In this document: positions 11,401-40,242 of the stretch, piece after piece
Position numbering within the stretch: the stretch's first letter is position 1
How the letters are laid out: each line of letters begins with the position of its first letter
Origin: Halobellus captivus
GTDB lineage: Archaea > Halobacteriota > Halobacteria > Halobacteriales > Haloferacaceae
Length of the DNA: 64,000 nucleotides
Direction: 5' to 3'
Assembly: GCF_003697845.1 (NCBI RefSeq)
Contig: NZ_RDQE01000004.1
Location: 124,001 to 188,000, forward strand
Notes under the pieces: model-generated
What the model was told of the DNA's origin: nothing
The model's database searches: none
Seen by the model: only the letters and a program-made list of their open reading frames with translations
Made by a program: the position numbers and the translations under genes

Positions 11401-12582
11401 CTAGGTGTCGCCGATCGTCCGGAGAGCGGCATCGAGCGCGTTTGAAACGCCGGAAGCGGCCGATCGGGCCGTCGATAGCTCGGCGGCCGTGCCGACGAGG
11501 ACGCCACGCCTTCGTTCCCCGTGAGCGTCGTCGCCGTCATCGCGCTCCCGGCCGACCGCGAAGGCGGCGTCGCACTCGGTCGCGGCCGCCTCGAGCGCGC
11601 CGACGGCCTCCGCCGACAGTCCCGACAGCTCGTACGTGTGAACGACCGCCGCGTCGGCGGCTTCCCGGGAACCCTCGCGGGAGGTTCCGAGCCGGTCGAG
11701 ATGTCGCTCAGCCTCCCGGACCGTGGTCACGTCGAGCTCCTCGAGTTCCACCGTGCCGTCGCGGCGGGTGCGCTCTCGGGAGAACTCCTCGCCGATAAGC
11801 GCCGCGTCCCGGGTTTCTGCCACGTCGTGGGTGCGGATCACATGTGCGCCGCGCTCGACCGCCATCGAGGTGGCCGCGAGCGACACCGGGAGCGCCTCCT
11901 CGGTCGACCGGCCGGCGATCGTCTTGAGGAAGCTCTTGCGGTTGATCGAGACGAGAAGCGGCCGACCGTAGCCGCGGAACTCGCGGAGTCGACGGAACGT
12001 CTCGCGGTCGTCCTCGTGCGTCTTGGCCGCCGACCAACCGCCGAAGGCGGGGTCGAGGAGCGTCTTCTCCGTGAACCCGTTCCGCGAGAGTGCCTCGTAG
12101 ATCTCATCCACGTCCTCGATCGCGCCCGGCCGCTCGAGGTCCGGCGGGGACGCCATCTTCGAGACGGCGGCATCGTGTTCGGCACACACCCGCGGCATCT
12201 CCGGATCGGCGAACCCGCAGACGTCGTTGACCATGTCGAACCCGCGCGAGAGGGCCGCGTCCGCGACCTCGTGGTACCGCGTCTCGATCGACCAGACCGC
12301 GTCGCCGGAGGTCGACTCGATCGTCTCGACGGCGGTGTCGAGCCGCTCCAGCTCCTCCTCGGCCGAGAGCACGTCGAGGTCCTTGTTGGCCGACTCGAGC
12401 CCGACGTCGACGACGTCCGCGCCCTCGTCGATCAGTTCCTCGTCGACGTAGCGGGCCGCCTCGCCCGGATCGTCGTACACGCTCGGGTCGTACGGCGACT
12501 CCGCGGAGACGTTCAACACGCCCATGATCCGGGGTGGATGATCGTCGCCGATCCCGAGGCCCGCGGCGTCCACGTTTCGCAT
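11401..12582 (-). CDS. folP: Dihydropteroate synthase (haloarchaeal type)
   Basis: 393 residues from the ATG giving MRNVDAAGLG. The enzyme joins the pterin pyrophosphate to an aminobenzoate-type acceptor. The TIM-barrel landmarks are IMGVLNVSAESPYDPSVY, EGADVVDVGLESANK, NDVCGFADPEMP, LLDPAFGGWSA, LLVSINRKSFLKTIAG and GAHVIRTHDVAETRDA. About 110 C-terminal residues (VTTVREAERHL onward) form an extra domain not found in bacterial FolP, seemingly usual in haloarchaea. The TATA-like CTTTAAGAG (minus strand, near 12607) lies 25 bp upstream, so the mRNA is leaderless. mptE follows downstream after 156 bp. Confidence 0.85.
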   Translation of the reverse strand: MRNVDAAGLGIGDDHPPRIMGVLNVSAESPYDPSVYDDPGEAARYVDEELIDEGADVVDVGLESANKDLDVLSAEEELERLDTAVETIESTSGDAVWSIETRYHEVADAALSRGFDMVNDVCGFADPEMPRVCAEHDAAVSKMASPPDLERPGAIEDVDEIYEALSRNGFTEKTLLDPAFGGWSAAKTHEDDRETFRRLREFRGYGRPLLVSINRKSFLKTIAGRSTEEALPVSLAATSMAVERGAHVIRTHDVAETRDAALIGEEFSRERTRRDGTVELEELDVTTVREAERHLDRLGTSREGSREAADAAVVHTYELSGLSAEAVGALEAAATECDAAFAVGRERDDGDDAHGERRRGVLVGTAAELSTARSAASGVSNALDAALRTIGDT

Positions 12583-12652
12583 ACCGGATCGAGGGTCGCG
12601 ACTCTTAAAGCGGACCCGGAACCGGCGGGCGAGGCGACGGACGATCCATCGC

Positions 12653-12908
12653 GCGGTGGCGTGCGCCGGTGAGCGCCCGCCACGGGCGCGAACCGCCCGC
12701 GCGAGGGAGGGCGAGGTGACCCGCCGGCGGTTCCGGCGGGTCACCGAGACCGAGGCTGGGGAGGGGTGAGGTGCGGGGCCGTGTGGTTCGGGTGGGATCC
12801 AAAGGGGCAGCCGGCTCGGTCCCGCCCGGATGACGCAAGCACCGCAGCGAGCACCGCGAGCGAGGAGCACAGCGAATCCCGGCGGGTCGAGCCGGCTGGG
12901 GCTTTGGA
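12653..12908. repeat. Structured intergenic element, copy 1
   Basis: It shares three blocks with the copy at 39823. Block I starts with GCGGTGGCGTGCGCC. Block II runs from CGAGGCTGGGGAGG to GGTGGGATCCAAAGGGGCAG. Block III is CTGGGGCTTTGGA. Between I and II lies a perfect 13-bp hairpin (12715-12727 with 12733-12745, loop CGGTT). Blocks II and III close a long stem: 12798-12804 with 12902-12908, then a symmetric GGG/GGG internal loop, then 12808-12818 with 12888-12898. The stem sequences differ from copy 2 but pairing holds. The interior shares GAGGAGCACAGCGA-like sequence. Short open frames here are not credible genes. Confidence 0.75.
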
Positions 12909-12988
12909 AACGGTCACCGCACCAGAGACGGGATCTGCCCCCAGAACCGACGGTACCGTTTTGTCAGTCTCCGCCGAACCACGACCGT

Positions 12989-13363
12989 ATGACCGACTCG
13001 TCCCCGGTCGACCGCGCGAAGGCGAACGCGACCGAGATCGCCTCGACCGTGGTCACCGGCGTCTGGCTGGCCGCGCTCCTCCTCGATTTCGGCTGGTGGC
13101 TCCCGCTCATGCTGTTCGGCTACGTCGTGGTCGTCCCGGTCGTCTCGATGCTGTTCGACGAGGAGGAGGAGTCGGCGGACGAGGCCGACGAAATCAACGC
13201 GGACGCGCTCGATCGATTGCGGAGTCGATACGATAGGGGCGAGCTCACTGATGAACAATTCGAACGACTCGAGGACAAACTGCTCGAGACCGAGACGCCG
13301 GAGGACGCGGCGGAGTGGCGGAAACGGGGGCGAGAACGATCCCTCGACCGCGACCGCCCGTAA
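12989..13363 (+). CDS. SHOCT-domain membrane protein
   Basis: 124 residues. Two hydrophobic segments ([20 protein letters not shown] and [19 protein letters not shown]) precede a C-terminal SHOCT motif ([26 protein letters not shown]), a short helical module often found at the ends of membrane proteins. The function is unknown. The start follows a TATA-like TTTTGTC 27 bp upstream, giving a leaderless mRNA. The gene begins directly after the intergenic element, so its promoter lies just outside the repeat. Confidence 0.75.
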
Positions 13364-39822: not shown

Positions 39823-40174
39823 GCGGTGGCGTGCGCCTGCGAGCGTCCGACAGGGCGCGAGCCAGCACGCGCGAGGGAGTCGGCCGCGACGAGGGCGACC
39901 GAAGGGAGCCCGACGGACGCGGCCGACGAGGCTGGGGAGGCATGAGGTGCGGAGCCGTTGCGGTGCGGTGTGGTTCGGGTGGGATTCAAAGGGGCAGTCG
40001 CGAGGGCGACGGCGCGCGACGCTTTCGTGAGCGAAGTGAACGAAAGTCAGGGAGTCGCAGCCGGCGAGCACTGCGAGCCGGACCGTCTCCCACGACAAGG
40101 ACCGCAGGAGCGAACGAAGTGAGCGACGAGGACCACAGCGAGCGCACCGAGCCCTCGCGACTGGGGCTTTGGAT
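39823..40174. repeat. Structured intergenic element, copy 2
   Basis: It has the same blocks as the copy at 12653. GCGGTGGCGTGCGCC opens it. The first stem (39879-39888 with 39918-39927) has a wholly different sequence from copy 1 but equal place. Block II runs CGAGGCTGGGGAGG to GGGATTCAAAGGGGCAG, and block III is CTGGGGCTTTGGA. The closing stem is 39984-39991 with 40167-40174, a GGG/GGG internal loop, then 39995-40007 with 40151-40163 (13 bp). The interior is longer than in copy 1 and holds a further hairpin near 40018-40048 and conserved GAGGACCACAGCGA. No convincing gene lies in it. Confidence 0.75.
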
Positions 40175-40214: not shown

Positions 40215-40242
40215 CGGCTGGGGCTTTAGAGACGGTCACTGC
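40215..40242. repeat. Solitary 3' tail of the structured element
   Basis: CGGCTGGGGCTTTAGAGACG then GTCACTGC matches the end of copy 1 (CGGCTGGGGCTTTGGAAACG then GTCACCGC) at 25 of 28 bases. No left half with matching stem lies nearby, so this is a leftover or duplicated tail, 40 bp behind copy 2. Confidence 0.65.

Follow-up and report, generated by a model that had tools for sequence, protein, structure and literature searches.

The window analysed here is a stretch of 64,000 nucleotides. Within it, folP, on the minus strand with its ATG near 12582, and a divergent gene of SHOCT type (12989-13363, plus strand) are separated by a spacer holding a long-form copy of a structured element (copy 1; 12653-12908, plus strand), whose first letters are GCGGTGG at 12653. 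Three hairpins, all read on the plus strand, were located in this copy. Hairpin 1 (12660-12703), found by folding and with arms that covary across copies, consists of an outer stem (12660-12665/12698-12703), an inner stem of CGGT (12667-12670) and ACCG (12692-12695), a tandem GA step (GA at 12671-12672 opposite GA at 12690-12691) and an upper stem (12673-12679/12683-12689) capped by a CCA triloop. The conserved junction GCGAGGGA (12701-12708, plus strand) connects it to hairpin 2 (12709-12751), which contains 13 perfect base pairs (12715-12727/12733-12745). Next come a G-rich core, GAGGCTGGGGAGGGGTGAGGTGCGG (12752-12776, plus strand), counted across the family and conserved in copies found by blast, and a variable G-rich linker ending in GGGTGGGA (12777-12797, plus strand). 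Hairpin 3 (12798-12908) is closed by 7 bp (TCCAAAG, 12798-12804; CTTTGGA, 12902-12908), followed by an internal loop of GGG (12805-12807) opposite GGG (12899-12901), a further 11 bp (CAGCCGGCTCG, 12808-12818; CGAGCCGGCTG, 12888-12898) and an upper stem with GA loops. The initial annotation had described a layout of two stems, i.e. the 13-bp hairpin and the closing stem of 7 bp, GGG/GGG and 11 bp; both were confirmed at their coordinates, but hairpin 1 with its tandem GA/GA had been missed. Both folded parts of copy 1 were more stable than 200 of 200 dinucleotide shuffles, with z-scores against these shuffles of -4.0 and -6.0 as DNA and -3.4 and -6.3 as RNA.

A second copy (copy 2; 39823-40174, plus strand), a long form with an inserted module, lies in a convergent spacer. 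Its G-rich core is at 39928-39952 and its hairpin 3 at 39984-40174 (both plus strand), the latter having a ATTCAAAG/CTTTGGAT closing stem and the GGG/GGG loop. Both copies share one order of parts, i.e. hairpin 1, GCGAGGGA, hairpin 2, the core GAGGYTGGGGAGGYRTGAGGYGCGG, linker and hairpin 3. Hairpin 1 has a symmetric tandem GA/GA internal loop, hairpin 2 keeps its location among copies while its sequence is swapped out, and the linker between core and hairpin 3 is variable and G-rich. Hairpin 3 (~110 nt) combines a CAAAG/CTTTG closing, the unpaired GGG/GGG, CAG..CTG and a long stem interrupted by GA loops. In its short form, the element stops after the G-rich core. In the upper part of hairpin 3 (alignment A1), steps of two base pairs were seen to alternate, as far as a GAA triloop, with GA/GA steps that do not vary; this purine zipper (GAGCGAACGAAGTGAGC) was present in many haloarchaeal spacers.

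Two-hairpin modules of about 45-75 nt, confined to these elements, were nested in L067, L086, L117, L129, L151, L154, L174, L176 and other copies. Two types (TCGCCGGC..GCCGGCTGCCAG..CGCTG and TCRCCGG..AAGCGAGAGC..GCCCT) occur in either orientation and at a few fixed junctions. The third (GGRAGTCGCAG..CCGTCTYCC) is represented in hairpin 3 of copy 2 by a module of GGGAGTCGCAG..GACCGTCTCCC type (40022-40095, plus strand, limits approximate); eight modules of this type were found, each at most 380 nt from a core. Tail units (TTTATAAGCGAGCGGCTGGGGCTTTGG..) stand in tandem on the 3' side of many copies (e.g. L081, L126 and L309) with a spacing of 51, 57 or 69 bases. Copy 2 is followed by a second tail unit, CTGGGGCTTTAG (40218-40229, plus strand), and tail units in other copies recur at 51-72 nt. 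Covariation was not supported for the tail hairpin.

The three blocks reported earlier as common to copy 1 and 39823-40174 are real and part of a multi-copy family, with 44 places by blast and 71 cores in the source genome. Cores were counted with a 25-base pattern allowing at most two mismatches and numbered 3-157 per genome in all 52 Halorubrum genomes, where the reversed pattern, used as a control, gave no match. The 25-base core was also kept in copies found by blast, independently of the core pattern. Across the class, 63 of 391 haloarchaeal genomes had core matches, some of them in genera belonging to other families, and the distribution outside Halorubrum was patchy; a 20-base core occurred at 95 places in one such genome, some of them as inverted pairs 135-160 bases apart. 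Tail-to-tail inverted core pairs, about 135-210 bases apart and resembling bacterial BIMEs, were observed in a genome of another family (G196; e.g. C19:36773 plus and C19:36916 minus) and at L019 of the source genome. Nearly all named records with the element were from Halorubrum, and partial matches were present on six haloarchaeal plasmids. Viral contigs and phage records yielded no match to the element, and no autonomous version enclosing the core was found in genomes G000 or G021.

Conservation of the fold was assessed by comparing pairing within and across copies. The end arms of hairpin 2, with 50 distinct 5' arms, were paired at 6.6 of 8 positions within copies as compared to 4.1 of 8 across copies (maximum 4.4), and those of hairpin 3 at 8.5 of 9 as compared to 7.1 (maximum 7.3). 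The arms of hairpin 1 gave 3.34 of 4 within and 2.48 across copies, and also 3.73 versus 2.87. The stems of hairpins 2 and 3 thus differ between copies yet pair, as had been proposed from two copies, and the stems of other copies do so too. Covariation was counted on an equal-length set of 33 aligned hairpin 3 sequences, because the whole element is long and hairpin 2 is variable in length. In this set, 97.1% of 1252 cells were paired and 24 of 38 pairs were changed on both sides. Double changes (154 versus 42.8, sd 5.1, when shuffled) and the covariation score (0.390 versus 0.151) exceeded the shuffles, none of 500 matching the real value on any measure, with the reservation that these shuffles ignore kinship and that the structure was taken from the same sequences. 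Moving the partner by 1-3 columns lowered pairing to 28-43%, and this slide control, with the many separate loci, makes an origin of the covariation by chance untenable. The unpaired GGG/GGG and GA steps were invariant or nearly so in the 33 sequences. Together with the doubly changed pairs, these fixed GGG/GGG and GA/GA positions support selection on the structure, as judged from the alignment, in agreement with the earlier argument from compensatory change. The non-Watson-Crick cells of hairpin 3 comprised 37 G-T versus 12 A-C, indicating that the plus strand is the one that folds.

Stems also changed in a manner absent from the initial annotation, which had recognised compensatory pairs only. 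At the folP-SHOCT site the flanks are alike between genomes while entire hairpins are exchanged, indicating that, besides paired point changes, stems are renewed by the replacement of whole cassettes; copies moreover appear mosaic. Both the whole-hairpin swaps among orthologous copies and the mosaic appearance would be expected of neutral repeats in which template-switch repair of imperfect palindromes, along with gene conversion, keeps the arms complementary with no selection on structure. Such repair would, however, also remove the GA/GA and GGG/GGG mismatches that are retained in the 33 sequences, and a preference for G-T over A-C is not expected in unselected inverted repeats, so that this explanation is very unlikely.

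The genomic placement of about 100 copies was examined with a codon-score gene model made for this analysis. None of these copies was inside a predicted gene, which argues against a reading frame conserved across copies, an outcome that the initial annotation had named as contrary to its proposal. The neighbouring genes were convergent in 39 cases, divergent in 19 and tandem in 18 and 24, indicating no orientation bias. Long convergent spacers that lacked the element were few. The folP-SHOCT site was occupied in seven genomes and empty in G003, and a tRNA site was empty in G031 and elsewhere occupied by an element in either orientation; the empty orthologous sites could in part be losses by deletion. 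The 39 of 100 copies in convergent spacers and the retention of one site in 7 species might be taken to indicate a domesticated DNA signal, e.g. a transcription insulator or a topoisomerase site like bacterial BIMEs. Convergent placement is, however, also expected from tolerance of insertions, copy number is 50-fold different among sister species and both of the sites analysed lack a copy in some relatives; a signal of this kind is accordingly unlikely. High copy number, dispersal, intergenic location, both orientations and presence or absence at given sites, together with the covariation of the hairpins and the IS5-type ends of some copies (below), are the basis for considering the element to be, probably, a non-autonomous and transposase-free mobile repeat (i.e. 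MITE/REP-like) with a folded core kept by selection.

Triloops closed 76 of 113 distinct hairpin 2 sequences, mostly as C(GAA)G, C(GGA)G or other GNA forms; the listed hairpin 2 loops included no GNRA tetraloop. GNA triloops such as GCGAAGC form hyperstable DNA mini-hairpins, and RNA prefers GNRA or UUCG tetraloops. On this comparison the balance leans towards DNA rather than RNA as the folding molecule, perhaps as single-stranded DNA of one strand. An alternative is that the copies are trans-acting structured RNA genes, each transcribed, acting with a protein partner and spread by duplication. Covariation with strand-specific wobble, tandem GA loops and an elaborate architecture would be in keeping with such genes, as would a TATA-like TTATAA that precedes the element by 11-16 nt in many of the copies from other species. 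This box is, however, rare in the source genome and too close to the element for an RNA start that includes the complete outer stem. Rfam 15 at gathering scores matched only one tRNA in the window and gave no match at E<1 in 12560-12990. The absence of an orientation bias toward genes and the dominance of C(GNA)G triloops likewise speak against RNA genes, and 3-157 copies with differing stems would be odd for a single RNA gene. We consider this alternative improbable.

Sequence signs of mobility were found in a part of the family. Some copies in copy-rich genomes are framed by GGCTCTGTTGAAAYCC inverted repeats, and at least 11 lie between inverted repeats of ISH1 type (IS5 family). These IS5-framed elements measure about 420-830 bp, which is too short for a transposase, and their core is non-coding. 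Where both ends were present (ten copies), the 8-mers on either side of the element agreed at 5.8 of 8 positions versus 2.5 when shuffled (maximum 4.4 in 5000); target duplications were 7/8 in four of these copies, and L322 had 8/8. Such an end pair was present at none of 2209 random positions. Elements of 1.3-1.4 kb (L375, L378, L379 and L384) that code a transposase of 273 residues (once 304) are framed by these same ends, with 8/8 target duplications at L378 and L379. The 273-304-aa transposase matches DDE_Tnp_1 and the NCBI IS5 family model and is near ISHxa2 and ISHla2 in plasmid records; the designation ISH1-type is our own classification, made from these matches and the 8-bp duplication. 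As the terminal repeats flank these transposase elements, their owner is of the IS5 family and not IS6/IS240, which had been guessed from GGCTCTGTTG ends and whose loci have other ends.

Ends of IS5 type were present in 50 of the 52 genomes. Among about 240 copies with flanks long enough for the test, both ends were detected by similarity in only 9, and in the source genome in none of 26; L039 and L042 of that genome have decayed ends and 5/8 duplications. The shared terminal repeats and 8-bp duplication of ISH1-type MITEs hence characterise a subset only, and neither IS5-type ends nor a target duplication was seen for copies 1 and 2 of the window. From the terminal repeats and duplications we infer that part of the family are MITEs, a subset of copies having probably been moved in trans. 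The same ends also surround lipoprotein-like genes without a transposase at L343:1016-1649 and at L072:4105-5407 (= L373); the one at the latter locus has inserted next to a structured element and shows a target duplication of 7/8. In about half of the IS5-framed copies the interior has the opposite orientation with respect to the two types of end (L299, L311 and L317 versus L318, L325 and L331), as if flipped across the inner inverted repeats CGGGAGTGAGTATCGCAG / TACTCCCG.

Several known systems share features with the element. MITEs, PATEs and SMR-A small mobile repeats have been described, with Haloquadratum as a host (PMC3119063). The subset of copies with IS5-type terminal repeats, 8-bp duplications and no transposase is similar to haloarchaeal MITEs (PMC3119063); described MITEs are, however, defined by their ends, whereas most copies of the element lack ends and the interior is a large covarying fold. 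Like the PATEs of Haloquadratum (PMC3119063), the element is short, transposase-free, palindromic, heterogeneous, high in copy number and mostly without terminal repeats. PATEs relate to IS605-type ends, whereas the element has no such link: an IS605/PATE origin was rejected as the core or hairpin 3 was near none of 30 TnpB and none of 30 Y1 loci, and blast gave no match. Bacterial REP/BIME sequences with RAYT are similar in being scattered extragenic hairpins, with the inverted pairs of G196 as a further likeness, but the element is a longer unit of three hairpins. Dependence on a REP/RAYT system was also rejected, since Y1 was present in 41 of 52 genomes and missing from 11, including G001 (125 copies) and G014 (98 copies). 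The nested two-hairpin modules (~50 nt) resemble SMR-A (PMC3119063) in being inserted, in either orientation, into a larger palindromic element, but SMR-A is about 110 bp and the modules were seen only within this family. SMR-A is marked by terminal inverted repeats, a lack of target duplication and palindromic targets; the ends of the nested modules could be placed only roughly. The open-access literature gave these haloarchaeal MITEs, PATEs and SMRs (PMC3119063) and no description of the element; with the Rfam result, this is in keeping with the initial view that no described family has this layout. The element is real and structure-conserved and is, apparently, undescribed.

For the mobile repeat with a selected core, the IS5-ended copies would have been moved in trans by the ISH1-type DDE transposase, and the remaining copies would have spread in shells since lost to decay or in some other way. 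The core would fold as one strand, presumably of DNA that becomes single-stranded during replication or transcription, and less likely of RNA; a putative host or transposon protein may read the folded core, so that the structure is kept, and stems may be exchanged between copies by gene conversion. The IS5 vehicle leaves the fold unexplained, because a double-strand DDE transposase needs no internal fold. A more speculative and rather unlikely reading is that the element moves or acts through its own folded single strand, read by a putative enzyme, and that the IS5 shell is a later vehicle. What is read would be the hairpins with GNA triloops and tandem GA plus the conserved G-tracts, the latter possibly as a G-quadruplex stabilised by molar potassium. 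If true, this would place the element in a new class, either of mobile DNA recognised by its structure or of multi-copy RNA. A fold is here retained amid sequence turnover, at a level usual for essential RNAs, in a dispersed and partly mobile repeat. What reads folded DNA or RNA at the molar potassium of these cells could be tested naturally on this family, and knowledge of the element would improve the annotation and comparison of haloarchaeal spacers.
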